From NCBI GenBank assembly GCA_000827325.1, contig KN832875.1, positions 1,798,001-1,862,000 of the forward strand: a stretch of DNA of 64,000 nt, given 5' to 3'. Below, in pieces: positions 1,270 to 49,462 of the stretch (within the stretch, counting starts at the first letter, position 1; every line of letters begins with the position of its first letter). Below the pieces are notes generated by a model. That model was not told where the DNA came from, did not search any database, and saw only the letters and a list, made by a program, of their open reading frames with translations. Both the position numbers and the translations under genes were made by a program. The DNA is from Oidiodendron maius Zn (taxonomy: Eukaryota; Ascomycota; Leotiomycetes; Myxotrichaceae).

Positions 1270-3455
1270 TTATTGCTGCCACGGCTGTTGTTGTGCGGGC
1301 CTTGGGAAGACTGGAATTGCCCCCAGACTGTCCAGGCCGCCACCGATGGGTTGCTGCATATGCTGCCAACCTTGTCCCGTGGCAGTATTCACGAACTGGC
1401 TTTGCCGGAACGGGTTTGTACTACCTGTAGGCTGAGGTGCAAGACCGCCACTCGTCTGTGGGCGTTGAGGGGCCCCAGTACTCTTAGCAAATGGGTTTGT
1501 GCCTGTGGTCATTGATTGCAGAGCTGTGCCTTGCTGCTCAAGGTGCTGTTGCTGCTGAAATCCTACTTGTGGCAAGGGAGATGTGTATGCGTATTGCGTA
1601 TGTTGAAATTGCTGGTCAGACGGTTGGCTGAAAGGTTGGCTAACTTGAGGTGTCGATTTTGCGAAGGGGTTTGTTGATGGTTGGCTTATGGGAGGCGAAA
1701 AAGGTGCCCCAACGGTACCGGTTTGAGTTACCATCATTGATTGGCGGAAGGGGTTGGTTGCTTGGGGCGCACCAGTTTGCATTGTTCCAAGTTGTTGTGG
1801 CTGCTGTAAGAAAGACGCTGTCGAATCTTGCGGAATGGAGGAGAGGGCTCCCGGCTGGAACGATGGTTGAGGAGTGTAGCCCCCAAAGCTGGTGCTAGTG
1901 AAATTTGGCTGGATTTGTTGAGGTTGTTGGGGTGCAGTGAACCCAGTATTAAATGGATGCTGCTGCTGGAACGGATTTGGACTTTGATAAGCTGATTGTT
2001 GAGAAACGAACCCATTCTGCTGGAGTGGTGGTGATTGAAGAGGGACACCAGAGCCGAATTGAAGGGGCGCTTGTTGCTGCATTCCTGGCTGAGTTGCCAT
2101 TGGTTGTTGGTTCTGCTCGATGGAATCGAAAAAGTCAATCAAATCTGGAGCAGGCCCTTTTGCAGGTTGACTTGGTTTGGACGTTGACGCTTTTGAGTCT
2201 GAGGCTCCTCTTCCAGATGCGACTTTCGAATCTGTGTCGCTCTTCGATATGAGAAGTTTACTCGAACCATTCGCCCCTCTGCCTTTCTTCGACTCCTGTT
2301 CCGCCAGATACTGTCTCCTGTTGATCTCAAAATCAGGGTCCATCAAGTAGTCCTCTAGCTGCTTTCCAAGGTTGACTGGAGCATGCTTTAACTTGGGTAC
2401 CTCGACTCGTGTTTGGTGTTCATATTGTCGAGCGGTATTAAGATACCCAACGACAAAATCCGTCTGTCTCGTAAAATTTTTGTATATCTCCATCGCCCGT
2501 TCCGCATCTGGTTTTGACATTTCGAAGAAGTGGCCTAGGAGGTTTAGAATTATCACCTAACTGATCAAATGAAAACTTACCTAGGATGTTGATCATGGCT
2601 TGGTTCATAACATGGAACATAGCCAGAAGATCCAAGACAAGCATTCGAAATACAGTGATAGTGATCTCGTTTTCGGGTTCGTTGTCCAGGACCTGATGTA
2701 ATGAGCAGAAAATCCTTCTCAATATGCTACAAACTTACATCGCATTTCAACAGAGCTGTAATCTGGTGCTGCACAATCTCCGTCTCGCGAAGCAGGCCCT
2801 TATCCACGCTCATCTTCTCTAGACGCCTGTCTCCACCGCGAACAAAGTCGCACTTAGCGTCTCGATAGGCACGAGCTCTTTCGCTCAGGTAATTAGTATA
2901 GTGGCGAATATTCCGGCCCTGCGTTTGAACTTTGTTATAATCACGTTAGCATAGCTTTCATGATATATCTCATTACTGTTGACTGCTTCTGTAGAGCAAT
3001 AGCCCGTAAAGACTCTCACTCACCATCGGAGAAGGTACTTATAGCAAGCATATTTCGATGCCTCGAAAGATATGCCAATGTCACGTCAGCGGACCCTTCT
3101 CTGATCATCAAATGCACCGTAATCAAACTCTTGAACACTACCGTCCATGTTGAATCCCTAAGCCTGTTCTGCAACGCCCGGAAGACTTCGGCAACCCCTG
3201 CTTCTCCAGAATGGGTCGCTATAAGGATATGCTCAATATATCTATGTAACGAAAACAGTCAGCTGGATTCCTGGGCCTCTTCGGTAGGGGTCGCAGCGTT
3301 CATACTTGGATTTTGGAGGTGCGGCCTAGACATGGCAAATGTTAGCAGACTGTACTTAGAGCAGTGGCGTGCACGACTGCGTAAGTGTGACAAAAGCCTC
3401 CGTTTACCTTTATCTTTGTAGCACCCTTCACAGACTTCTCAAAAGAACTGGCCAT
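1270..3455 (-). CDS. YAP1801: AP180/CALM-type clathrin adaptor with ANTH domain and NPF motifs
   Basis: Six exons on the minus strand: 3408-3455, 3306-3325 (20 nt), 3024-3241, 2739-2929, 2581-2692, 1270-2534. All phases agree and give 617 residues. The start is ATG at 3455 (MASSFEKSVKGATKIK). The first ~275 residues are an ANTH domain, with the lysine-rich phosphoinositide-binding start and HSGEAGVAEVFRAL, RNIRHYTNYL and LDNEPENEITITVFRML. The remaining half is a Q/P/N-rich disordered tail with five NPF motifs, the ligand for EH domains. The family binds PI(4,5)P2 and clathrin at the plasma membrane and loads cargo into endocytic coats. The yeast genes are YAP1801/YAP1802; the ortholog call is from family knowledge. 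The exon with ANTH residues 22-95 is invisible to simple ORF calling because it is split by short introns. Confidence 0.9.
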
Positions 3456-4773
3456 CTCGAGCGCAGATTTGCCGGCTGGACAGCGCGACGGCAGTTGTGT
3501 GGCCAACGAGCGGGTGACTAAACCCTCACGCCGGTTCCCGAGACACGCGGAGAATTGGCCGACACCAGGTACCAAGGGATAGGTATACAGGTTCTTCAAA
3601 CCGCTCGCGGGTGCGTTCAAGGGCGGAGCCTGGAGGTTGGCGCAATGTTTACCTGGAGATTGCCTCGTCGCAGCCAAGTTATGGTGACGATTTCGCTTCA
3701 AGGGTAACACGGATGGCCCCTGCAGCTGACACAGCACGCCGATGTCAAACTGGGTGAACTACTTATTTCCCGAGTGGGGATATCTTGGTGATCATCACTG
3801 GGACTGACAGTTGGCATGTTCAGTGTTCTACATCACAAGAGAGCGACAGAGGGTATTATTGCAGCTCATGTTGTTCCTTGTCCATGTGGCGGCTGTGCTG
3901 GCACATACCGTCAGTCAGCCGGCTATATTTGACTTAGCGAATTGAATCGTCTCAAGGGTAAGCATTCATGAACTGAAAATTATGGATAGAGGTAGACATC
4001 AGTTATTTATTCGCCCAGACCTTCCAAATAGATAAAAACTAAATAAATGCAGGGGCAGTAGCATCGATACCTACCTCTCTATTCGGCACCGCGTGGGCCA
4101 TGCCCGGCACTTTTGGTCCCTCTTCCACAGCTGTAATAGATGATAGCACTCGCTATATCCTCATACCTTAAGCCAGCCCTAGACACAAATAATTTCAGGA
4201 TAGAAATATGTATAGCATCCGCCAGCAAAAGTCACAGACTAGTGATTCCTTCATGTATAGAACTAGCGCTTGAAAAGATCGCTAATTTTCATATGGTCTA
4301 GGGCTTGACAGTGCTATGAAGATGAGAGAGGACCAAAGATCTACTCAGTAGATCCCTCCATAGTAGCCTTCCAAGTTTTATTGTTCAGAGATGCCTTCAT
4401 CGCGTTCGTTAAAGTAACAAGGTGGATGCGTCGAACGCTTATTTCACTCTCCCAAATCTCCTCTTACAGACAGACCACTTAAGCCCAGTGAAGGGAGAGT
4501 CCAAGAGCTCGAGAAGCCGGAATCGTAGTCATATAAAACACGCTGGCTTTTCATCATCTTCAAAGACCATGTGTCAGTAGAAGTCAGCAAGGAGTGATGA
4601 GAATATTGGTACATACTTGTTTAAAACTTGGAAGGATGAGGAGAGAAGAAAATCTATCAGTGCGCAGGAGAAATATATAGGCACTCGGAAAAAAATCACG
4701 GCGCTAACCGAAAATAGACAGCTCCAAATAATGTTTGACTACCAACAGCTATCACACTATGACTTCATAAACA
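3456..4773. other. Intergenic region between divergent AP180-like and MSD1 genes
   Basis: About 1.3 kb between two genes that point away from each other, so it should hold both promoters. Small open frames here (for example 4617-4967) have no family resemblance and overlap the start of the synthetase gene. I see no RNA gene or mobile element. Confidence 0.5.
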
Positions 4774-7062
4774 ATGTCGCTCATTTTAGGTCGTATGCGG
4801 CAAGCCTGGGAAGTTTCAGGTTTAAGGTATCTTCAGAGGCCGTGTTGTACCAGCCAAGGGTTCCGTCAGTTCCGCAGAGCGCCTTCAAGGTGTTTCAACA
4901 ATGTCAGGCCAAAGCAGGTAGTAGAGGAGACGACGATGAAGGAAGGGGAAGATGGATTCTGGCATGAATATAAACGGTCATGTATGCCATTTACCTCGTT
5001 TTAAACGTCGACGCTGATATCGTGGTACAGTCCAAGTTCCAAAACCAAACCTCAAACTCCAAACGGAAATCTCTCACGAGCTGTTGGGCAAACAATTCAT
5101 AATTGCTGGGTTTCTCGGGAACCGGAGGGACGCAGGCTCGAAAATGGCATTCGCAGACTTTTATGGAGAAGGTATCTCACAGAAACTTCAATTGTTTGCA
5201 CGTTCAGACATTAGCGGAGACGCCTTGCGAGACTTGCGTGCCACCTCAGTCAACAGCGCCGTTAATGTAACGGGGACATTAGCTTTGAAGATGGAGCCGA
5301 AAGCACCTAAGAATCAAGGAGAAGTTCAATTGCAAGCGAATGAAGGCCATTTGTTCCTAAATCAACTCGAATTGCGTTTGCAGGATATTAAATGCATAAA
5401 CACTTTCCCGAAGGACTTTGCATATCATACTGCTGAAGATAGGCACTTACAGATACGTTTTGACACAACACTAAAGCGACGGTTAGAATTCAGGTCGAAG
5501 GTAGCTGCATTTGCTAGGCAGAGCCTACAAGATTTTACAGAAGTTGAAACTCCAATTCTCTTCAAATCAACTCCAGAAGGAGCAAGAGAGTTTCTTGTTC
5601 CTACAAGAATAAGAGGATATGCATACAGTCTACCTCAGAGCCCTCAGCAGTATAAACAGCTTTTGATGGCAAGCGGTATCCACAGGTATATGCAATTTGC
5701 CAAATGCTTTAGAGACGAAGATCACAGAGCGGATCGACAACCGGAATTCACTCAGGTAAATCTTGAACTCAAATGAGCCAAAGACATCTAACCTGTTGGC
5801 AGCTCGATCTAGAAATGGCATGGGCAGATGGAGAAGATGTTATGAATAGAGTTGAGGAATTGATGAAGGCACTCTGGCTTGAATTTTCAGAACATACCCC
5901 TGCTCCAACCTTCAGTCGGATCCGATACAGTGAAGCCATGGCGAGGTATGGCTCAGATAAGCCAGATTTGCGTATTCCAGGCTCAGTAAGACGACCATTC
6001 TTATCTCTTGAACTTGCACTTACAAGGTCAGATCCATCGGCTGGATCATATAGTTCCCAACAACCTGCGCAGCATGCTCACTGACTTAAAGGACCCTATA
6101 ATCGAGGCATGGAAAGTCCGATTAAGTGGCGATTCGAACATTCTAAAAAGTTTTATTTCGACTTTCATGGATTCCACAGAGGGTGGAGACTTTCGAAGTA
6201 ATCCAGATGGCGCGCCTGGGGTATTCATCTATGATCAAACAACGCCAATTGGTGGATTGCAAGCTTTTGGCTTCGAATCCGCCGAAAAGTTAGAAGCTTT
6301 ATATCGAACTGCTACTACCTCGCCAAATTCGACCGACACCCCTCTTGGCGAGGGCGATGTTTTATTTGTTCAAGCTCGTTCAAATGCTCCGATCTCTGGA
6401 AGCTCAACACAGTTAGGGAAGCTTCGTCGTGCTCTTTATATTGCCGCGACAGAAGCAGGGATAGCTCAGCTTGATCCCCAGGACCGGTTCCTCTGGGTCA
6501 CTGACTTTCCAATGTTTACGCCAAACGATACTGATGGTCCAAATGATCAAGGAACATCAGGATTCTCCGCAACACATCATCCATTCACGGCACCAAAATC
6601 GGCTGCCGATGTTGACTTGTTATTGACCGATCCGCTCAGCGCTATAGCAGACCATTATGATCTTGTTCTCAATGGCGTGGAGCTTGGTGGTGGAAGCCGA
6701 CGCATCCACAGTTCTGAAATGCAACAATTTATTATGAGAGATATCCTGAAGGTATGATGTCTGCCCTTTTGTGTAAATCAAATACTGACCCGTTCCAGAT
6801 GAATCAAAATCGCCTGGGTTCATTTGCTCATCTTTTCAAGGCTCTTCAGGCCGGCTGTCCTCCTCACGCTGGCCTGGCAATAGGTTTCGATCGTCTTATT
6901 GCTGTCATGACAGGCCAGAATAGCGTCAAGGATGTAATCGCATTCCCGAAAGATAAATTGGGCAGAGATCTCCTGGTAAAATCGCCAGGTCAGGTTTCCA
7001 ACAGCGAGCTTCTAAAATATCATATGCAATTCATTATTTCCGAAGAGCAGTCTCAGGACTAG
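4774..7062 (+). CDS. MSD1: Mitochondrial aspartyl-tRNA synthetase
   Basis: Five exons: 4774-4981, 5031-5755, 5803-5985, 6032-6751, 6799-7062. All phases are consistent and give 699 residues. Introns are 46-49 nt. The first ~60 residues are rich in Arg and Ser with almost no acids early on, as in a mitochondrial presequence. An OB-fold anticodon-binding domain follows, then a class II catalytic core. Motif 2 is [16 protein letters not shown], a flexible GAD-type insertion with LWVTDFPMF follows, then [13 protein letters not shown] and motif 3 GLAIGFDRL. It charges mitochondrial tRNA-Asp. The long bacterial-type insertion and the leader mark it as the organellar enzyme rather than the cytosolic one. 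ATG 4774 was chosen because it gives the leader; ATG 4795 is a possible alternative. Confidence 0.93.
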
Positions 7063-24581: not shown

Positions 24582-25433
24582 TCATTCCCACCCAACTTCT
24601 CCCCTTAAGACAAAGGTCTCGAATCTCACTCCTTCCTCCTCCCACCCCTTCACTTCCTCCGTCCTCACCACACTCGCCCATCCCCTCATCAGCGCCCTCC
24701 AATAACACGCCTCCGCCGCAGGACTCAGATAGCCCATCTCAGTGACCAATTCCCTCTGCCTTCTTGCGATGCCTTTCGCCACATCCGAGTTCGCACGGAG
24801 GTACTCTATGGTCTCTTCGAGATCTGCCCAGTCCGGTGCAACGAAGATCATGTTCGCTTCGGAAGCAGCGTACGACGGCCAGCGGTCTGCGGTGATGGTG
24901 TTGTAGGTGGATTTGGTGGAGAGTGGGAGGGTACGGCTGTGGAGGGGCCGCACGAGATGCGTAGTGTGGAGAAAGTAGGTTAGTGGTGGAGTGAGGATGA
25001 TGGATTCGCAGGCTTGGTGGAAAGGGAGGCGGCCAGAGTAGGTTATGCCCTGTTCTGGTTGTTAGCTAATTTGGTCGTCTGATATACGAGCGTATTTAAG
25101 GGAAGGATTGGACAAGGGGTAAGGAAGATGTGACCTCTGTGTATATAATATACTTGTATCTGCAAAACTCTTCAATAGGAATCGCGTTCTCCGCCTTCTC
25201 TCCACCGCTCTCCCACTTCAATGTCTCGATGTCAGCCCACTCTTTATCTTTGCTCCGCTCCAGCAGCATTGGACGCAGCAGCGTATTCCTCACGGAATTG
25301 CACCACGCCGTGCCTCTCCACACGGGCTTTATCTATCTCCTCCTCCCACGGCGTCTCGCGCTCTACTACCAGAATCTTCTGTAGCGCCTCATTCACGGTC
25401 CCGATGAACTCCAGGGTCGGCGCAGAGGCCTAG
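24582..25433 (-). pseudogene. GT90 (CAP10-like) glycosyltransferase, 3' half of a split gene
   Basis: C-terminal half of a GT90 protein. The last exon (24582-25049) holds GITYSGRLPFHQACESIILT, HTTHLVRPL, the NMIFVAPDWADLEETI block and a normal stop. The intron 25050-25134 is intact. The preceding exon (25135 to about 25323) holds WRGTAWCNSVRNTLLRP, WADIETLKWE and FCRYKYIIYTE. Upstream, 25325-25433 encodes TLEFIGTVNEALQKIL and TPWEEEIDKAR, but in another frame, so there is a frameshift near 25324. Homology to GT90 stops at about 25433, where a transposase remnant begins. The family transfers xylose or related sugars in the Golgi. The matching 5' half lies at 33886-34637 on the same strand. Confidence 0.8.
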
Positions 25434-26130
25434 AAGGTTAGGGAGGCCGTTCTGTCTTGTCTTGCTCATCATTATAGAACTCTAGTTTAGGTGCATTCCC
25501 CCACCAAGAGATCCATGCTGCAATGTGAAAGCGCACACCCTTTAAGGGAGGTCGTTCCTCGATATTCTCTGGGTTATCTCGTGTACCTTCCTCCCGGAGA
25601 ACTCTCCCTTGAGCTTGAGACGTAGGGTCAATATGTGCTTCGTCTGTATAGACAATATGATCGAAAAATCCGAAGAGGGGCTAGTTATACATGGTTGAGG
25701 CCGTAGGCGCTCCTTTCCTCAAGGTTTTTGGCTGAAATCACCCTTCTTTATAAACGCGCACTTATACCTCCCACCTCTCTTTGTATGTTCCTTCAATTTC
25801 CGCTGCAATTGACGCTTTCTGACTGGTAGATTATGGTACTGAATCTATGCCTCGTACGGTTGCTTTCGAACAGGATTTCGTAACGGCAAAACAAGCATCT
25901 GGCACATTGATTTGGTTACTTTTAAAGGCCTCCCAAGGTGTGTATATCGATCACGCGTCTTCCTCCTTGCTAATTCACCCATCTCTAGGTACTGCTTTCT
26001 CCAATACCGTCCTGTACCTTCACTGATACCACATTCTGTCGAAATCGACTTCTCTTCAGTATTAGTCGATTAGTAAGTTGTATTGCTGAGGCGCACGTGA
26101 CCTAAACACCAGTTGCGGTTTCCTAGGTGG
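25434..26130 (-). mobile_element. Tc1/mariner-like DNA transposon fragment, decayed
   Basis: Minus-strand translation from about 25690 down to 25440 gives some 80 unbroken codons with FFDHIVYTDEAHIDPTSQ (the first catalytic Asp of a DDE transposase), ILREEGTRDNPENI-like text and VRFHIAAWISWWGNAPKLEF. Upstream, KRQLQRKLKEHTKRGGRYKC matches the region before the catalytic domain, but is broken by TAG stops of the kind made by CAG-to-TAG change. The right edge is uncertain. It abuts the truncated GT90 half exactly where GT90 homology ends, and no clear terminal inverted repeats were found. Family placement rests on motif memory, so another DDE superfamily is possible. Confidence 0.6.
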
Positions 26131-26362
26131 TTTAGACTAGCTGTCAGAACCTACCTTCATTTCTCTTCCACTGCCTTCTAGCTTTTCGTATATATTCAAC
26201 TACAAAAGGAGAGTCAACTGATTATAAACCGTCTACAAGCTTTCACAGCTCTGATCGTCCCCTATTTATCCTCTAGCACGACCCTCCTAGCCAAGGTAGT
26301 CTTTGTATTATTTCATCATCACTCTACCTTATACTGACTTTGATGTAGCCTTTACCAGCGTC

Positions 26363-27182
26363 ATGTCTGATCAAATGGAGACTCCAATCAAAATTTTGCC
26401 CTCCGCACCGGCAGTTGCGCCTTTTGATATCCAGAAACGCATTGAAGAGCTCCATAACTACTTGGATCCAAAAAGCAGTAACTACCAACCGGAACATCAG
26501 CACATTAATATAAGGGCGGTTATTAAACTTTACCAGGAAGGGAAAATTGATGGGGTAGAGCAAGTCTTTATAAAGGATGGAAAGCTTATCCCACGGAAGG
26601 AGATAGCTACAGGACCCTCTGCCCCTTGGATTGAAGGATTGTTCCATCAGATGGCCCAAAAATATAGTTATGGGCATGGGGCCTTTGGTAATAACTTTCA
26701 CGAAGTAAGTATTCGTTTCTTCTTATGATTTGGAATTTAAGATTTTCTTTTATTAGATTCATATTTTACTTCGGCTAATACCCGCTCTTGGAGGTAATGG
26801 AGTAGTCGTTGGAATGGCTGTGATGAACGATACCGGCTCTGACCTGTTGTCGCTCTATTCTACCGATTTGCTTTACCTTGGAGGAGACATTGGGGGTAAC
26901 ATTCAAGGATATCGTGGCCAGGTTGAGCCGACTTCTGTTGTAGACGCGAACGGTATAATCAGAGTCTGGCCAACATATCTCGTACAAGTTCGGCTTGCAA
27001 GGGATGACTATACACCATGGAGCGACTGGATTGTTGAAGTTGCAATAGTTAGACCACCTTCTCCTTATCTACTCCGACTATCCGGGATTGGAATCAGGCA
27101 TGAGTTGTATTTCGGTACATCGCCAAATAATCTTCACCTTGCTGTTAGTGCAACTAAGGGGGGTTTGACATCTCTACTGTAG
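26363..27182 (+). CDS. DTGS retropepsin-like protein of unknown function
   Basis: Two exons, 26363-26704 and 26757-27182, phase 0 at the 52-nt intron, 255 residues. The N-terminal half is soluble and charged (IQKRIEELHNYLDPKSS, AVIKLYQEGKIDGVEQVF). The second exon begins ILLRLIPALGGNGVVVGMAV, then MNDTGSDLLSLYSTDLLYLG. The hydrophobic strand plus D-T-G-S-D is the active-site pattern of aspartic (retropepsin-like) peptidases. A second hydrophobic-hydrophobic-G element may be LLRLSGIGIRHELYFG. There is no signal peptide, so the protein is probably cytosolic. It lies open inside otherwise decayed sequence and is followed after 349 bp by another same-strand gene. A domesticated retroelement protease is one possible origin. 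Function is unknown. Confidence 0.6.
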
Positions 27183-27338
27183 GGATATTCTTAGCAAGTC
27201 AAGGCTGGCAGTCTAAAGAAGGTAGAGTGGAATCAATGTATGTACTAGTATTGTTATATAGGATTCAAAACCACAAGAGTAGTTTATAATTCTATACATT
27301 CCATTAAAGCTGACCCTTAATTTGCAATTTAGGCAGAC

Positions 27339-27386
27339 TATGGCTTGACTATAGTTTGACTATAGTCAAGCTATACTCAAGCTATG
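27339..27386. repeat. Quasi-palindromic direct/inverted repeat cluster
   Basis: In 48 bp, TGACTATAG occurs twice (27346, 27357) and the inverted-type unit TCAAGCTAT twice (27366, 27378). The centre (27356-27369) is a perfect 14-bp palindrome, TTGACTATAGTCAA. It sits in the spacer between the DTGS gene and its downstream partner. It could be an operator-like site, an element terminus or a hairpin. Confidence 0.6.
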
Positions 27387-27531
27387 GAGTCGAGAAAGCC
27401 AGTGCAATATTCACTGTCTTCTAAGTCCTACAATTCCTATTCTGTCGCTTACGCTAAAATATTATTCGATCTACTCATCTACTCGTTACTTTGTCCATCA
27501 CCTTTCTATACAAACTCAATCAACTCATAAT

Positions 27532-28380
27532 ATGGCTCCACCTACGCCCTCACCTACACCTGCCAAGGCCCCTATGAATAGACCTGGTTCTATACGGGTT
27601 ATTGGAAAATTTGAAGACTTGACCTTAGAGGAGCGCTATCTCGCCAACGATATTATTGATGTCCTAGGAGAGAGGAACCTAACGAATGAAAAGGCTGATA
27701 ACCAAACTCGAGAATGGTTCTGGCAATCTGTATTCCGTACCAAATGGAACACGAATCAACCCAATATACACCCAGGCCCATTACCCGACCGACAATTTGC
27801 AGAGGCAGCAATATGTATTGGACGGTTTAACCAAGACCTGCCTCCCTCTAAAGGCGTTGCTAGAAGAGCATCTCAAGAAGATCGACAACCACCTCCCCCA
27901 AGCGCACACCGACGCCGCCTCGCGCCTGCCTACCTTAGGCCTAACATCAACTGGGATACCGAGGGTATTGTGTGGATGTATACTGATGGTCGAGGTCAGG
28001 CCGTCAACCCTCGGTATATCGACCTTATGGGATTCTCTGATCACAGGCAAGCACGGGCATACGCGATAATCCACTGGGACGAGGCTGAATGCACGCGAAT
28101 TGGTCGATGGAATCACCTTATAGCTGTGTATATCGCTAGAAATCGCTTGGTAGGCTGGATGAGGAGACACAGAAGGGAGGATGGAGATGATGGAGATGAT
28201 GAAGAAGATGGAGAGGCTAATGCTGGAGCAGACGTGACTATTAAGGGGCATCTAGAGGACCTTGTGCAAATCCGGACCGGCAATGATATGCTTGCAAATG
28301 TGGCAGATATGGCTAAGACTGTGCAAACTTTAACTGGGGGGTGTGTTGGAGGACACCACTATTTAAAGAATGGTCTATAG
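27532..28380 (+). CDS. Hypothetical protein paired with the DTGS gene
   Basis: Single open frame of 282 residues from ATG 27532, with an AT-rich leader. The start is Pro/Thr-rich (MAPPTPSPTPAKAPMNRPGS). It is followed by a compact conserved-looking block (IRVIGKFEDLTLEERYLAND, QTREWFWQSVFRTKWN). Next come a basic proline segment (SAHRRRLAPAYLRPN), a second block (GIVWMYTDGRGQAVNPRYID, RIGRWNHLIAVYIARNRLVG), an acidic D/E/G stretch and a short C-terminus. No family is recognised. The complete frame, same orientation and closeness to the DTGS gene suggest the two move or act together; that is inference. It could be an accessory gene of a mobile unit or a lineage-specific host gene. Confidence 0.5.
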   Translation: MAPPTPSPTPAKAPMNRPGSIRVIGKFEDLTLEERYLANDIIDVLGERNLTNEKADNQTREWFWQSVFRTKWNTNQPNIHPGPLPDRQFAEAAICIGRFNQDLPPSKGVARRASQEDRQPPPPSAHRRRLAPAYLRPNINWDTEGIVWMYTDGRGQAVNPRYIDLMGFSDHRQARAYAIIHWDEAECTRIGRWNHLIAVYIARNRLVGWMRRHRREDGDDGDDEEDGEANAGADVTIKGHLEDLVQIRTGNDMLANVADMAKTVQTLTGGCVGGHHYLKNGL

Positions 28381-28960
28381 AGGACTCGGATAGACATATG
28401 ATAAATGCCCTGAATCGAAGTGTTACCTATATTCCTTATTTGTTTGTAGTAAACGACCAGACGGCAAGTCCGCATCAGAAAACCGCGACCCCTGCATCAG
28501 GCAAGGCGCGCGCACGGGCCTGCCGCCGCATTCGCGGAGTAACAACGAGCCCCCGCAGGCAGACGTCGATTTGCTCAATTGGGAGGCAGACTCTATAGCT
28601 CCAATGCAATTGAAGGTGTAGCCAAGGGCATCCACGGATCGGGATGCGAAGACACTTCGTGGATGACCAGCCAGAGGGACCGCAACAAGAGGTGAAGGGT
28701 AGGGGGGTTCGGGCAAATTGAACTTTGACTTAGTATGTATTTCACGACAAAGATATTGCTTCACATAGCGACCAACAAAATGTGAAATGGGAAGTCTTCG
28801 TCCTCAGGGCCTCAGCTTGTCCGTTTCCGAGGTCTGCCTCGGCCAGTCACCTGCTGTAATCCTTATAGTTGGTGACAATTCTCAGAGGTAGAATACGAAC
28901 GGAAAAGCTGCTACTGTAATACTAGGTCATATGTAAAGTGCTGACCTCGAGGCTCTCTTA
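28381..28960. other. Spacer without recognised gene
   Basis: About 580 bp of mixed composition. Open frames on both strands (28341-28598 plus, 28423-28764 minus) show no family features. It is probably old intergenic or decayed sequence. Confidence 0.4.
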
Positions 28961-28989
28961 GATGAGAAAAGCGTCCAAGCACTTCGTGC

Positions 28990-29753
28990 CCGAATCCTCT
29001 TCAGCTATAATCCTCTACTGTGAATCTTTATCCCAGCGGAAACCATATCGAAACAAAATGCCAATCTTCCTTGCAATCCTTATTATTCTCCCTTTCCTCC
29101 CTAACTCCTTGCCGACAGAGTCATTGAATGTCCACCAAAAAAGGCCCTCTAGTTCCTTATAGCTATTAAAGTAGTGCCGCCCATCCATGTCCATAAACTC
29201 TAACTCGTTCTCTAGCCGTGAGTCAGGATACCGGGATATCCTTCGGAGAAGAGCGGTGTGAGGTTGTTTCGAAGCTGGGATACCGATGGAGAGAAGCGGG
29301 AGGGCAGGGTTTGGGCGAGCAACTGGAGCTTGCCAGCAAATGTATTTTGGATAGAGCGAGTGTTTATTGGTTGTGGTTTCTTCCAGGATGCAGCAAAGAA
29401 GCTGGGAAGAACATTGCAACGCAGGATCTACAATACAGTGCAAAATCCACAATAGTTTTTTTTTTTTGCCGCTGATACTCTTTAAGAGAAAGTATTACGT
29501 TTGCACCATTCGCAATACACGAGTCCATATACGTGATTCCTGGCAGCTTCTCAATAATATAAACCGAAAGAGGCTCAGAATGTCCAATATAACCATGGTG
29601 AATGGAGCTGGCAATGACACTTCCATGGATTGAGCGAGCAAGATGAAGGTGGTCCACGTTAAGGTCTGAGTCTGGGGTTCGGAAGTGGGCAAGTCTAGCA
29701 GGAGATCCGCCTACAACTGTATAGCTGAAGGCACCTTGGATAGCAGTTGGCAT
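28990..29753 (-). pseudogene. APH-like phosphotransferase pseudogene
   Basis: Two minus-strand pieces in different frames match the fungal aminoglycoside-phosphotransferase-like (protein-kinase fold) family. The first (about 29480-29753) is the N-lobe: PTAIQGAFSYTVVGG, HFRTPDSDLNVDHLHLARSI, LSVYIIEKLPGITYMDSC. The second (about 29015-29300) is the C-terminal helical part: MDMDGRHYFNSYKELEGLFW, SVGKELGRKGRIIRIARKIG, LFRYGFRWD. The central segment that should carry the catalytic HGD and the metal-binding D is absent. A run of twelve T (29456-29467) sits near the frame change. It is thus a dead copy. The family's natural substrates in fungi are mostly unknown. It lies inside the DNA that separates the two GT90 halves. 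Confidence 0.6.
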
Positions 29754-29989
29754 GACCTGGTCATCTCCTTACAGGTCCGTTGGAGCGAGGCAAAGCAAAG
29801 CATCGCCATGGCGGAACGGGGTGATATGCACGCTGCACAGATGGGGTTCACGATGCACATGTTGTGTAATAGAATCATGACCGAGCATTGGCCTGCTTCT
29901 CCGCCTTCCCTCCGGCGTGATTAAGTAGGGACTTGACCTCTAACCTTTAGCTAGACTTCATTTTGCATATTTCTCGTTCATTACTATAC

Positions 29990-30240
29990 TATACATATAA
30001 GCTTATTTTTCATCAAACCTCATTCCCAATTTAATGCTCTAAAATACATTTAGAATAAAGACTTCTTATTATATACTAAATATTAGTATACATTAATTAG
30101 TTTTAAATTTCTCAAAGATACTTTAACATTAATTATAATCATACTTGTAATAAGTATAACCTAGTTTTATTATATTATATTCTAGTAACTTAAATCTCTT
30201 TTTATTAAATTAAAATATATTAGCTATTAATCAGGGCCTT
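29990..30240. repeat. Extremely AT-rich block
   Basis: About 250 bp of nearly pure A/T, including TTTTAT and TAATTA-type words and almost no G or C. In an ascomycete this is typical of heavily RIP-mutated repeat DNA. A similar block lies at 30485-30595. No element identity is recoverable. Confidence 0.6.
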
Positions 30241-30485
30241 AAGCACGCACTACACATCCCTTAGGATCTAGGATATCCTTTAGGATCCAAGATTCAGAGG
30301 ATTCATGTGAGTCAGTAAGAGGCCGAATAGGTCTATATAAAGGGGCCCTTTTCCCAGCTTATCTGTACTTAATTAGTTGTCTCTGCATCACTCAATAGTC
30401 AATATAACTCTGAGTTTCACCTTATATCTGACTACAACCTGTGCATTACCTGACCTCTGATTAAGATTACCTTTACTGTATTAGT
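30235..30485. repeat. Possible solo LTR fossil (promoter-like segment)
   Basis: A higher-GC island between two AT-rich blocks. It has a TATATAAAG box (about 30336-30344), a following CTTATCTG/TCACTCAATA leader and a polypyrimidine/CTGACCTCTG stretch, the layout of fungal LTR promoters. No internal retroelement genes or clear paired end repeats are seen, so this is only a suggestion of an old solo LTR. Confidence 0.25.
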
Positions 30486-30595
30486 TTTTAAGTACCTTTT
30501 TTTGATAATATAAAAGTTTATCATTTAAATTAATATTTTTATTTTACTTTTTTAATTTAATAAATTTACAATAATTATAGTTTTAATGTAGAGGG

Positions 30596-32480
30596 GCAAA
30601 CAGGGAACAGAAAAGGGCGGTCTACAGAGCTGGCTATACGCCTGGTTACCGAAGCAGTACGGACAGCCTGAAGCGGCGGAGCAGTTGCCTCGCTACTCCC
30701 AACTAGATATCAAAGGCGCCTTCAACACAGTTAACCACACTGGGCTCCTAGACACCCTGCATAAACAGGGCTTCCCGATATAGGTGATCAGATAGACTAG
30801 CAGCTACCTCGAGGCATGCTCGGTACAGCTAATGTTTGATGGAGAAGTGTCTAAACCAATACAGATCAGGGCTGGGGTCCCCCAGGGATCCCCCTTATCG
30901 CTGATCCTATTCCTGCTGTATATAGCCTCACTCTACGAGGCCCTAGAGAGGCACGGGAACCTGACAATTATAGGATTCGCAGACGATACAAACCTCCTAG
31001 TAGCTAGCCATGATGTCTCAGAGAACTGCCAGCGACTCGAGAGTGCCTTTCGGGCTTGTGAACGTTGGGCCAAGACAAGAGGTATAGAGTTTGCCCCCCA
31101 GAAGAGCAAGCTTATACACTTTACCTGGAAGCACGCTGGGTTCACGAAGGGGGTTCATCTTGCAGGACGTATAGTCAACCTAGTGGAGTCAGCCTGATTC
31201 CTGGGTGTCTAGCTTAACAGGAAGCTCTAGTAGGGTCGCTACTTAAGAGAAGTCAAGAAGAAGCTAGCTATCCAGAAGCTTGCACTCTCAAAGCTTGCAG
31301 CATCAGTCTGGGGGTACAGCCTAGCCTGTACAAGAGAAATCTACACCAAGGTCATCAGGGCTATAATAGTATATAGAGTATCTATATAGCATAAACCTAG
31401 TGAAGCAGCGGCGAACCCTAGGGGTATCGCTAGCCACCTGAGCACAGTATAGTCTGAATGCCTCCATATAGTCACTAGAGGGTACCGGGTGACTCAGGTT
31501 CGATACCTCAAGGTTGAAGCGGCTATCCTACTGATCCATATATACCTCAACAAGAGAGTAGCAGAGTTCGAGTCCAGGCTCGAACATATAGGCATGGCTA
31601 AGAAGGTATACAGTGCCTGCACTGTAGTGGTGACCTACCTCCAGAGGCAAAGGATAAGAATCAGGCCTATAGGACTATAGCTCCTACCTAAAGGAGGAGA
31701 GCAGAAGGCACAGTAGGCACGCCAGTGGTACACTGAAGGGGAGCTGACAGCAGACAAGGCAGTAGAGAGGGACTGGAGACTTTGGTAGGAGGGCAAGGTC
31801 GAGGCACGGGCAAGGTCCCAGGGAGGTCCTGGTGTAGAGCTAGCGGATATAGACCCTGAATTCAAAGGGAAGAGGGCACTCCGAAACACTAGAACCTTGA
31901 GAAGCACGAGAGCTCCTTTCTTATACAGATCTGTACAGGTAAGGTAGGGCTCCGAGTATTCCTGTTCCAATGAAGGGTCCCCGAGGTAAACACGCTGCTC
32001 TATCGCTACAGCATCACAGGGGAGACGCCAGCCCATATAGTCCTCTTCTGCCTAGAGCTATAACAAGAAAAAGAGGAGCTCCAAAGGGCTCTCCTGCTAT
32101 ACCCCCTGTACACTACCCGGGACTTCATGGCAGCAACAGCAGACCTGGCCTGTATAGGGACGGTAGTAAGGTGGCTCTTAGCTACTGGCTGCCTTCCTGA
32201 GTACTGGCGAGCCTGCAGGTATATAGCAATCCAGGACCAGGAGGAAGGGGAAGGGGAAAAGAGGGGGCAAGAGTAGGCCCAAGGTGGTATCATGTAGTCG
32301 GTGGTGAGACCGGCTAAGTAGCAGCGAGGACCAGGCGAAGACGCTTCGTGTGTATAGGGACCAGCGTATAAGGGTTTTGTCCAGCCTTAAGGGGCAAGGT
32401 TTACCTTATAATATTTCAGTAGTGGTTCTGTAGCTAGATAGCTAGACAGTATATTAATAATAATAATAAAATAATAATAA
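30596..32480 (+). mobile_element. Tad1-like LINE (non-LTR retrotransposon) fragment, RIP-damaged
   Basis: Plus-strand reverse transcriptase, 5'-truncated. It reads QLDIKGAFNTVNHTGLLDTL, IQIRAGVPQGSPLSLILFLL, the catalytic GFADDTNLLV (YADD-type box) and RGIEFAPQKSKLIHF (thumb region). It continues into KKKLAIQKLALSKLAASVWG and a long C-terminal tail. Many in-frame TAG stops sit where W or Q is expected (TGG or CAG to TAG), for example in the segment after HKQGFPI and in the 31196-31260 stretch; this is the CpA-to-TpA signature of RIP. The 3' end is probably the TAA-repeat tail at about 32453-32485. No RNase H or endonuclease domain is visible. Confidence 0.85.
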
Positions 32481-32599
32481 TATAGTTTTAATGTTTAAAA
32501 GGTTAATTGATTCTTACTCTAGCTAGCTAAAATAAAGCTATAAAGTATCCCTATAGTCTTATACCTAGGAAAACTATTTAGAATAGAAGAAAAACCTAG

Positions 32600-33690
32600 G
32601 CTCAACCTTTTTGACTGCTTCAATTATCCCTTACTGCCTACTAATGCTTACTGATTTCTACTGGAATCATTTATATGATAAGGCCTTAGCTACCCGGAAT
32701 TGACTTAATCGGCCTGATTATATAATCTAACATACAGCTACTCCTACCCCCTCTTAGGTATTGAGCAGCTATATAATATCGATCCCTCCTCTATATATTA
32801 TATAGAGGCTCTACTAGTTGCCCTCCTTAAGAGGGTAGTGGCGGAGTATATAGTACAGGATTTCCTCCTCCTGCCTGTATTAGTAAACAGGGGACTTGAA
32901 CTCTGATACCCTGATCCAATACAGGAAGCTAGCTAGTCCTGTCTGACCTGTATAGAACTAGACTAAGGTTGAGCTCTCTGCCTTCTATAGATTCTAATGT
33001 AGCTTTAGGGTTATATAACCTAGTAATTGTCGAATAAGATCCTATTAAGCCTCTCTCCTCCCTCTCTTCCCTATTGCCTGTTGGTAGGCTTGGTTCTGCT
33101 CTATATCCCACCTCTATATCCACTTATATAGGATCTGTTTCTCCTCTATACGATCCCCCTGATCTATAGCTCTCTGTTACGCCCACTCCTTGCAGAGCTA
33201 TCCCTGTATCCTAGCTCTCTTGGCTACTCTTGATTTCAATCAGGCTCTGATTTCTGAACAGGCCTTTTTGATTGTATCGTATAAGCTAGAATCCTTAACT
33301 TCTCTCTGGAAGGCTGCAACCTGGCTGTTTAGGTATATATCTATTAGGGGAATATATGTCTCGACTTCCAGGCTTCAGATCGGGGTAGCCTTATAGGCTC
33401 CTGCTACTGTACAGAGGCAGCTGTTTTGGATGGGCTGTAGCAAGGGCATTAGCTTGCCCACTTTAGCCCCTTATAGGTTCCTCCAGACTGAGGCTCTCTA
33501 GGATATAGCTGGTCGTATAACCGCCATATATTTCTGTCTTGCTCTAAGGAAGGTTGCCCCCCAAGTGGAGGCTGTTACACTTTGTAAGGCATACTGTTGG
33601 ACAAGTGCCTTTTTCTTGACCTCCCGTGCGTGGGCTGCCCACTGGAGCTTGGTGTCTAGCCAGACCCCTAGGAAAAGGTTAATTTACTTA
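32600..33690 (-). mobile_element. Second Tad1-like LINE fragment, opposite strand
   Basis: Reading the minus strand from 33690 gives WLDTKLQWAAHAREVKKKAL, QYALQSVTASTWGATFLRAR-type text, then a tail matching the post-RT region of Tad1-like LINEs (AVIRPAIS..., IQKGLFRNQSLIEIKSSQES). TAG stops are frequent, as in the other copy, so it is also RIP-damaged. The left end is indistinct. An AT-rich tract (33680-33775) borders it on the right, next to the GT90 5' half. The head-on arrangement with the first LINE suggests two separate insertions or a rearrangement. Confidence 0.65.
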
Positions 33691-33885
33691 TTTACAATAA
33701 TAAAATTAATAAAATAAATAATATAGTCTAGCAAAAGGTATTTTAAAATATCTATTCCCTTTTAGATTAATATCTAGAGCGCGAGAGAGAGCGCGCCAAC
33801 ATTAGAGTTGTTGGCCTTAAATATGAAAAAGTTGGGACTAATTCGATATGCACATTTGCAACCGTTCCAATTCGATATTCGAGAA

Positions 33886-34637
33886 GATTGATGGGGCCAT
33901 GTCCAGAAGGAGAAGTGCGGCATCACCCAGTAGTTCTCGCCCGCGATATCCGGATGGTTTGAGCGCGAAAACGACCACGCGTCTAGCCGCGGGCTGTCTA
34001 TCACTGAGAACGCGAATGCCATGTCTGGGATGGGCTCTGGGGATGTGACCAGTGCGCGGTGGATCTGCTGGAGGACCGCATTCCGTTCCTGTTTCTGTCA
34101 GTACCGGCTCCTCATAGCTACATACGAGTGAGGAAGGCATACCCATTTCATAGCCTTAACGGGATGTCTATCCACAGATATCACATAAAGCTAGACGCCC
34201 CCTTACCATCAGCATCTTATTTACCCAAATAGGAATATAATCGACTTGGGACAACCCGCCAGGCGTCGAGACCTTACCTTCCCATCTTTAATCCTTCCCT
34301 GCACCATCCCCGTAGCATGACCCGATTTCTTCTGTAATTCAAACGGGCCTCTGGCAACTGCAGTCTCAATCTCCTTTGTCAGTCCCGGAAACACAGCGCT
34401 GCATTCCTCGGTCGTCATATCCAGCCTCTCGAACATCTCCGTATGCTTGCCCCGCATAGGATATCGCCCCTTACCCTCTAGCCATCCTGTCCCAAATAAT
34501 ATTCCCCTGAGCGCCGAATCAAAATGTGCAGGGAGTCCATAGTATATAACACAGATACCGAAAATAAGGGACGAGAAGAGTGTTAGGCGGGTGAGGCGAG
34601 TGACAACTCGTCTGCGAGGACGAGGTAACACACCCAT
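33886..34637 (-). pseudogene. GT90 (CAP10-like) glycosyltransferase, 5' half of a split gene
   Basis: Start ATG 34637 (MGVLPRPRRRVVTRLTRLTL) leads into a type II membrane anchor (FSSLIFGICVIYYGL). The luminal stem follows, with MTTEECSAVFPGLTKEIETA and GMVQGRIKDGK up to about 34263. After a poorly resolved intron or damaged segment, an exon from 34088 reads ERNAVLQQIHRALVTSPEPI, SFSRSNHPDIAGENYWVMPH and FSFWTWP. Family homology then stops at about 33886, just before the FIGT block found at 25433 on the same strand. Together the two halves cover nearly the whole family length once, in the right order. The open frame beginning at 34664 uses GTG and is not the real start. Confidence 0.75.
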
Positions 34638-35194
34638 GTGGATCGATGCAAGGTGCGAAAGCACTTCTCTTCTTTCACAAAAACTTAAGAGAGCATGGTA
34701 TCTTCATCGATTTTATCTGCAAGACTTTTCGCAATAAGGTGTCGTGTCCACTGGGGACACAGAGGGGTTGGTTGCGAGTCATATGCGGAGATGCAGAGGT
34801 GATGGTTGAATTGGAATAGGCTAAATGAATGGAAAATGCTTTTAATGAGATGTAAACACGTACTTTGACTTACCTTGTCTTATTCCCTGAAAATAATCCA
34901 ACTGAGACGGAATAATCAGCGGCGTGAGGGCCTGCGTGAAATTTTCGGAGGAGAGTGATTTGTTTAAGGGGGTCTGGGGTTTGTTCTCAGCCCTGTCACC
35001 AACATATCCATTCCAGAGGAGAAACGACGTTTTATACCCCCCGCAAAGCAAACCACTGGACCCAGAAAACTTATTGGCACCGTATCTATACTCCCTCAAT
35101 TTTATCTACTCATGTATCATTGCTGCATAATCCATATCAATTCCTCCCCCGCACTCCCCAACGCCGCATTCTTCTTCCCGTAATTTCCCTCACC
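34638..35194. other. Upstream region of the split GT90 gene
   Basis: About 560 bp without a gene, between the GT90 start and the end of the small zinc-binding protein gene. No distinctive repeat or element was seen. Confidence 0.4.
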
Positions 35195-47192: not shown

Positions 47193-49462
47193 GGTAGATC
47201 TTGTATCCGCAAGATTCAAAGGCTTAAAGAATTGTTTTCATGCAGACAGAGAGACAGAGAGACAGATCCCAAGTAGAAGATCACTTGAATATATACATTA
47301 TACGCTCACTTGAGGTCGAGATGACTGAATCTATAAAGACGGAAGAAATTATGATTCGATGCCTTCCCATCTGCAACAGAGTATGAAAGAGGCATACCTG
47401 GAGCTATCAACCCCCAAAACCTCGGCTCTCCAGGACTCCCCTGATCTGATCTTCAGGAGAATGAAGAGGGTCGTCGAAACGGGTTAGGGGGATACGGCCA
47501 ATGTTTAATTCTCATTCCGCGAATCAGGCGCCGGGACGAATTTCTATCGAACATGAGGCATCGGAGAAACTTCTTTCATATTAAGTCATCCTGTAGATTT
47601 TAAGAGGTGGAAAATTATGGGCGTGCAAGGCCCCGCGAGACTAGAGGCCAGGAAAGTGTGGCCGAGTGAGGACCTCCGTCTCCAAAAGCCTCTTTATCCA
47701 TGTGTGCCACGGGCCGGTTGCCGAACGCGGGGGAAACGGAGGCTAGAGGGTGTAGACGGCAGCTAGCGCGATGATTAGCTATAGAGGTAGAGGAATCCGG
47801 ATGAGAAAAGGCTCGGTATTTACTCGATTGGGACATTTTATATTGGTAATAGAACAGAGTGGGAGCAGCAGGGGCTGGGCAGATTGGTCGTATTGCCCGT
47901 TTAAGACCGCGAGTGTTCAGGAACAGATAAATCGTCTTTTCAGGACGATGCCTGCTTGTATACTCTTGGTTTTATTTTGTTTCAATCTTCTTAAAGCCTA
48001 ACTTGTATGTAAAATCTCCAGTGACTGGGTATTCTGAGGTTCGAGCACTTCTAAAGCTTAGCTCTAGCCCTTGTTCTTCTCGGCTCTCACTTCGGAAGCG
48101 AACCGAGGGGAAATGCTCCCCTTCCCCTCGTCCATCCGTTACGAGGCAAGCTCTTACCTATGCCAAGACTTTCTAATAACTTCTGACGTTACGCTATAGC
48201 GTAACGATCCAGAAAGGTGCAGCTAGGCTGTGCGGTTGGGTTTATTATGCATTATTGTTGGTGTAGAATTGGAGTCGTGTTGCTTTTGTGCCTTGAGGGG
48301 GATCTGCCAAGAACGGCGCGGGGTTGGGGATGGCCAAGTTTGGTTCACAAGGAGGGTTTGGAACTTTTTACTTTGTCAGAGGGTAGAATTAATTAATTTA
48401 GAGAGAGAGAGTATATGCATAGATAAGAGTGAGATACATGGAAATAGATAATGTTATTGTCGGAAGGGGGCTTTCCGTTAAGAGAATTAACCCCCTGAAT
48501 GGAGATGACCAAGAATCCATAAATGTATTGTCTCCGTCGTCAAATTGAGGCCCCAACAGCTATAGCTACCACACCCCCCCTTAATAGCAAACTTTACGTG
48601 TTTTACAAGCCTCAAAAGTCTGTCACGTATATTGTCATGGCACTGTTATCTTGCGTTATCTTGCGTTGCTATGCTGTACGATATATTGTTCCAACACCTC
48701 ACTGCGCCTCCCTCATCTTCCCCCCTGATGGATTGGATGGATTCGGGAATCGCTGACTTCGCCCCGGCGACAGAATCGGTTACATGCCTTACGTTGACGT
48801 GTTTTAAAGTTTCTGGGGCCGTAACCAACTCCCACAGTGCGGCTGAGCCGATTCCTTATCTCTGAGCCAAGATCCTGCAATCACCCACTCCTTTGTTCTG
48901 CGAAAGTTCTCGCAAGAGAGAATTGGGTTGGATTGATGCTCACAATGGAGAGCATAGGGCCAAGACAAAAGAAATATCTATAGGAGCAAACTCGATAACT
49001 TTTGATTTCATTCTATTGACCGCGGGGATATCTGGCCAAGTACCTTCTATGCTAACAGATGACAAAGGAAAATTGAGGAAAATCAGATAGAGACCACTTC
49101 CACGCTTCCACACACCCTTCAGAGCTGGGGGAAAGATTACTGGTACACGAGGAGAACCATCATTCCTTATTCTTGTTGCTTCGTAGTAGGGAGTCTGCAC
49201 GCTGATGTCTCGCACAACTTAAATACACGTTAACATTTTCGCCCCTTTTTTCGTTAGTTGGGTTGACAGTCTTCGAGACGAGATATTGCCGTGATCCATA
49301 TTCCGCATGCGATGAATTGACAACCCGTGTGCACACTCTCCACTTCCTATTCGAGACCCAGAACGCCGGCAATGCTGCGCTAAACTTGACAAGATAGACA
49401 GACAAAATCCACACCATCAACCCCTAAACCCCCTCGCCTCATTACCAGAGGCAAGAGCAGAT
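47193..49462. other. Gene-poor region
   Basis: About 2.3 kb with no recognised gene. It contains a purine-rich run near 47240-47270 (GACAGAGAGACAGAGAGACA) and the perfect palindrome at 48187-48206. The rest has moderate composition and no transposon homology that I can see. Confidence 0.4.
48187..48206. repeat. Perfect 20-bp palindrome
   Basis: CGTTACGCTA immediately followed by its exact reverse complement TAGCGTAACG. It is flanked by non-complementary bases. It could be a cruciform or factor-binding site, or the joined ends of a lost transposon. Confidence 0.7.

Follow-up and report, generated by a model that had tools for sequence, protein, structure and literature searches.

A GT90-type gene of Oidiodendron maius probably split by an insertion that contains nested LINE copies

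One gene of the GT90 type (glycosyltransferase family 90) in the ascomycete Oidiodendron maius Zn has very probably been split in two by an insertion, and the insert has a layered structure. The gene is found in a window of 64 kb, by which the whole stretch of DNA analysed is meant (contig KN832875.1, positions 1,798,001 to 1,862,000 of the forward strand; G000:C6:1798001-1862000). The genome comprises 45.9 Mb in 58 contigs, its genes having short introns and a fungal appearance, and all homologue comparisons were made within it. Open reading frames (ORFs) were listed for both strands over 22.0-37.5 kb of the window and the sequence was read over 24.0-35.5 kb. Both parts of the gene are on the minus strand, the N-terminal half at 33894-34637 and the C-terminal half at 24582-25414, with the insert between them at 25417-33893. 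The locus is bordered on one side by the genes left of 24.3 kb and on the other by a gene at 36.6-38.4 kb that, from its sequence, is PP1/PPZ-like phosphatase. The first-pass annotation of this DNA had proposed the split, with edges at 33886 and 25433 and about 8.4 kb of inserted DNA. The split is retained, with the edges shifted to ~33894 and ~25414 and an insert of ~8,477 bp. The contents had been given as a flat series of a Tc1-like remnant, two accessory genes, an APH pseudogene and two LINE (long interspersed nuclear element) pieces; this description gives way to a layered one in which both LINEs are later nested arrivals, and the APH label was not confirmed.

The N-terminal half begins with a start codon, contains two introns (~34277-34191 and 34142-34095) and ends in FSFWTWP, and its matched exon pieces have no stop or frameshift. 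The C-terminal half resumes at LEFIGT and has one intron (~25134-25050) and one frameshift at ~25324. The introns have GT..AG ends, the splice sites having been read by eye. Three of the four minus-strand pieces match the Pfam profile PF05686, in rising profile order and each below the gathering score: profile positions 67-132 in piece 33886-34097 (E 0.012), 163-223 in piece 25096-25332 (E 0.002) and 271-340 in piece 24582-25061 (E 4.7e-4). The first-exon piece, 34221-34703, gave no Pfam match, and none of the 8 matches obtained in a genome-wide PF05686 search is in the window. The C-terminal piece also matches human POGLUT1 weakly (PDB 5L0R, E 0.012). Membership of the family is indicated by the three profile matches and their order, together with collinearity with a paralogue, L005. 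This agrees with the proposal that the halves lie on one strand in the order of a single protein.

Six of the eight listed GT90 loci were compared with the pieces (L001-L005 and L008, the other two, L006 and L007, being extracts that overlap L002 and L004). The closest paralogue was L005, at C1:3177714, which is termed apparently intact since its matched pieces are stop-free, and of which piece 1450-2070 exceeds the PF05686 cut-off (E 1.7e-9). It was the top paralogue for all four pieces, with E values of 4e-13, 7e-18, 5e-16 and 1e-49; L002 and L004 ranked behind it, while L001, L003 and L008 gave no match to the pieces at E 0.01. With the stop-free pieces of L005 as tblastn queries, residues 36-100 of one open frame align to window 34091-33894, residues 101-130 to 25414-25325 and residues 131-191 to 25323-25132. 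The halves therefore join at L005 residues 100 (window 33894) and 101 (window 25414), without loss or repetition of a residue, and the claim that one half ends where the other begins in the family sequence holds to the residue. Because all four pieces share the same best paralogue and the break points meet this exactly, the agreement is more than chance. Two outcomes had been set beforehand as speaking against a single gene, namely halves from clearly different GT90 subfamilies and halves overlapping in family coordinates. Neither occurred, L005 being best for every piece and the tblastn alignments being free of overlap. To judge from these alignments, the two halves complement each other as parts of a single GT90-type gene. 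The remaining tblastn rows were antisense, overlapped the GT90 pieces or were weak, and beyond the two halves the 64-kb window yielded no convincing GT90 piece (weak rows at 49010-49168, 5625-5672 and 27373-27447, E 0.025-0.042, were in frames without GT90 support).

No intact GT90 reading frame is present, as 8.48 kb separates the halves and the frame shifts at ~25324. This frameshift, which the earlier reading had placed near the same position, is seen in the L005 alignment and fits loss of function; it is a single site that could be a sequencing error, and the insertion is the stronger evidence that function was lost. The gene is predicted to be a pseudogene, and no GT90 activity is expected because it is both in two pieces and frameshifted. 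The N-terminal half would give at most a truncated protein without the C-terminal part, and the C-terminal half would have lost its start and would carry the frameshift.

The two LINE pieces proposed within the insert were both recovered, the sense copy by a reverse transcriptase match and the antisense copy by translated LINE matches. The significance of direct repeats was assessed by comparing the longest common run with that of 2000 resampled flank pairs. The sense LINE (30590-32480, plus strand) contains a match to RVT_1 (Pfam, E 1.5e-14), and the region ~30589-32469 matches at least 47 genome rows at 68-86% DNA identity, not counting one row of 46 bp and the match of the window to itself. 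Whole-genome DNA self-matches were drawn from scored candidates, the best 40 of 517 in the search with this LINE. It is flanked by an exact target site duplication (TSD) of 14 bp (30576-30589 and 32481-32494, plus strand), and a run so long was reached by none of the 2000 resampled pairs. The antisense LINE is a degenerate remnant (32495-33689, minus strand) of which the minus-strand pieces match translated LINE copies with a best E of 1.75e-13. Its exact TSD of 12 bp (30564-30575 and 33690-33701, plus strand) is of a length reached by 2 of the 2000 resampled pairs. The 12-bp repeat encloses the antisense LINE together with the sense LINE, and because it does so the sense LINE is placed in the tail of the antisense one, the 3' tail of which, from 30576 on, was the landing site. 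A reverse transcriptase and TSDs, as expected of LINE insertions, are thus both found inside the insert, and to judge by their flanks, each pair with a TSD of its own, the two LINE-type copies arrived later and are nested. The layers are, from the inside out, the sense LINE, the antisense LINE remnant with the sense copy in its tail, and an older block of ~5.4 kb, which encloses both and is the insert minus the two LINE layers. The TpA/ApT ratio is 1.69 and 1.46 in the LINE copies and 0.71 and 0.76 in the GT90 halves, a RIP-like composition such as is left by repeat-induced point mutation (RIP); the second RIP index of the LINE copies, 1.04 and 1.07, is just moderately low.

The outer edges of the insert do not look like transposon ends. 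At the left edge there is a Tc1-like transposase fragment (25417-26069, minus strand), the remnant named in the first reading, which was matched to relatives and corresponds to about residues 48-258 of the 425-aa open stretch of one of them, L072. When it is aligned by MAFFT with three relatives, the similarity ends only a few bases from the GT90 junction, so that the fragment is cut at 25417 at about residue 258 of the open stretch; its helix-turn-helix Pfam matches were below cut-off. At the right edge there is a coding-like fragment of ~180 bp (33714-33893, plus strand), 81% identical to C3:24934-25103, its one other copy among the matches listed. It too is cut at the GT90 junction, and its DNA similarity runs to the junction, 33896. 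Neither outer edge therefore looks like a transposon terminus, the Tc1 copy being cut within its coding sequence and the other edge lying within the two-copy fragment. GGG, at 25414-25416 and 33894-33896, is the one repeat that occupies both edges. The longest common run near the outer junctions is 6 bp and is not at both edges; a run of this length was reached by 484 of 2000 resampled pairs, which is the chance level, and this figure does not apply to the GGG. The outer edges lack inverted repeats (0 of 12 terminal bases). The insert as a single block is not present elsewhere in the genome among the matches listed, in which only pieces of it match.

Because each edge of the block lies within another sequence instead of coinciding with a transposon end, capture by end joining was considered for the first insertion. 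The insertion was probably a clean one between two adjacent codons of the GT90 catalytic domain. The first arrival would have been the older ~5.4-kb block, with the Tc1 fragment, a two-gene unit, DNA without a family, a repeat of about 250 bp and the two-copy fragment, inserted at a double-strand break through end joining; the antisense LINE and then the sense LINE followed. End joining would account for a target without loss, edges at arbitrary points and the small number of common bases. The end-joining step itself is put forward tentatively, at somewhat less than an even chance. The fuller proposal, of a natural end-joining capture, not a transposition, of a multi-gene fragment of at least ~5 kb with a still-open two-gene unit and without target loss, is held with the same reserve. 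Comparable events have been described in Magnaporthe oryzae, where DNA was captured at induced breaks with 2-3 bp of microhomology and the loss of one base (PMC9684475). One insertion there consisted of ~1.3 kb plus 140 bp, had microhomologies of 2 and 3 bp and had cost a single base; further insertions measured 10 and 17 kb and contained broken fragments in both orientations (PMC9684475). The breaks in that case were induced and the DNA was supplied, whereas here the event would be natural, is inferred, and has no donor found.

Several points weigh against the reading of one gene split by a captured block. The edges are not sharp: at the left, protein similarity to Tc1 reaches 25405, ~12 bases beyond the set edge, and the protein match of the right-hand fragment reaches 33933, ~40 bases beyond its edge, while the DNA match stops at 33896, and the edge positions have an uncertainty of at least a few bases. 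The GT90 halves score under the Pfam gathering cut-off, as does the C-terminal piece of L005, and the split is deduced from paralogues of the same genome. For the end joining, the 6-bp run at the junctions is at the chance level, and the donor locus of the block was not found among the genome matches listed. The large M. oryzae insertions on which this comparison draws were of experimenter-supplied DNA, and two had no homology at one end (PMC9684475).

The first insertion could instead have been a single transposon with a short TSD, the GGG at the edges, which later lost both its ends and left parts of other elements where the insert meets the gene. The 3-bp direct repeat is rightly placed for this and the insert is rich in transposon fragments, but both ends would have to vanish without the loss of any GT90 residue on either side, inverted repeats are absent, and a fragment with one other listed copy is unusual for a transposon end; this origin is considered unlikely. 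A tandem pair of GT90 genes, with opposite halves lost from the two, would be possible in principle in a genome with several GT90 genes (8 PF05686 matches), but independent losses would agree only by luck on break points that coincide at one residue, without gap or overlap, and the window has no other convincing GT90 piece; the residue-exact adjacency makes this explanation exceedingly improbable. An assembly artefact, to which a repeat-rich insert could give rise, is just as improbable, as both LINE layers carry their own TSDs across the assembled sequence and the window begins 1.80 Mb into a contig (C6) that extends to at least 2.18 Mb.

Three kinds of mobile element were rejected as the cause of the first insertion. 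Insertion of the Tc1 element as the primary cause is contradicted by the Tc1 copy being cut inside its own coding sequence where it contacts the GT90 gene. Helitrons have conserved ends, 5' TC and 3' CTRR, and insert between A and T; these end motifs, read by eye, are absent at the junctions. The Starship group is defined by its captains, and none of the 22 genome matches to the captain domain PF11917 (DUF3435 tyrosine recombinase) is in the window, which speaks against a Starship here. The 22 DUF3435 matches are elsewhere (C44, C29, C25, C37, C11, C1 and others), many of them with stops, and Starship-type elements, many decayed, may be present in those parts of the genome. No tRNA genes were found in the 64-kb window.

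The two accessory genes proposed within the insert were found as gene-like ORFs with paralogues in the genome. Accessory gene 1 (26363-27179, plus strand) is open, with at least two exons, and its second exon is matched at five other genome places. Accessory gene 2 (27532-28377, plus strand) is an open ORF of 282 aa. A paralogous pair with the same order and strand is found on C7 (L075 74-2170), where the pieces of gene 1 are 42-61% identical and gene 2 is 27% identical, and the two genes (window 26363-28377) accordingly appear to form a two-gene unit. Neither gene gave a Pfam family at cut-off in the pieces scanned, and the second exon of gene 1 gave no PDB match. Folded without an alignment, this exon gave a useless model with a mean predicted local distance difference test score (pLDDT) of 38.4. 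It contains a DTGS motif, which might be read as protease-like. An internal piece of gene 2 (27554-28048) is found again in L070 at 3287-3787 (C1:2328786-2329286), with 89% DNA identity and with stops, and it occurs there alone. A further fragment of the insert, of ~200 bp (28711-28910), is 85% identical to C1:2492671-2492856, its sole relative among the matches listed. Together with the ~180-bp and ~200-bp fragments, the gene 2 piece suggests that this genome contains dispersed short fragments of genes.

The region 29015-29930 (minus strand) holds broken ORFs, the tested pieces of which had no convincing family. It had been read as an APH pseudogene, which was not confirmed: two pieces had no PF01636 (APH) match in Pfam, none of 32 genome-wide PF01636 matches is in the window, one piece had no APH match among PDB sequences and one piece had no paralogue in the genome. 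A divergent APH-like N-lobe in this region is still conceivable. Further on is a dispersed repeat of ~245-270 bp (30216-30467) with many genome copies, self-matches for which were the best 40 of 402 candidates. All 15 displayed copies begin with TATTGATCAG. The observation on this repeat covers window 30216-30467, C2:2054213-2055256 and C8:3314-4242. Beside the repeats are AT-rich stretches, 29931-30215 with 21% GC and 30471-30588 with 12% GC. Three of 10 distinct places similar to gene 2, the window's own included, are within 2 kb of a copy of the repeat, as counted with 41 copies (40 of the 41 listed rows and the window's own).

In its interrupted gene, element inside element, TSDs and RIP-like TpA/ApT in the LINEs, the locus resembles the disruption of filamentous fungal genes by nested transposable elements; it differs in that its outer edges show no recognisable transposon ends and fall within a Tc1 gene on one side and a two-copy fragment on the other. 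Nested LINEs are also described in PMC9684475, as MGL in MINE. The gene is like the GT90 family (PF05686, POGLUT1 5L0R) in that three of its four pieces match the profile and the C-terminal piece weakly matches the PDB entry, and unlike its members in being in two pieces and frameshifted. A literature search found no work joining glycosyltransferase family 90, fungi and a transposable element.

Loss of a GT90 gene by insertion is of a known kind, here well resolved, and is essentially ordinary gene decay, with other GT90 genes remaining in the genome. The locus is a layered record of probable gene loss, with a clean break without target loss, an older block and two LINE arrivals in order. What is mildly interesting is the kind of event that the first insertion was. 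If this was a capture by end joining, accessory gene pairs that lack their own mobile element would have a way to relocate in fungal genomes, and natural cases would bear on how accessory genes move in these genomes.

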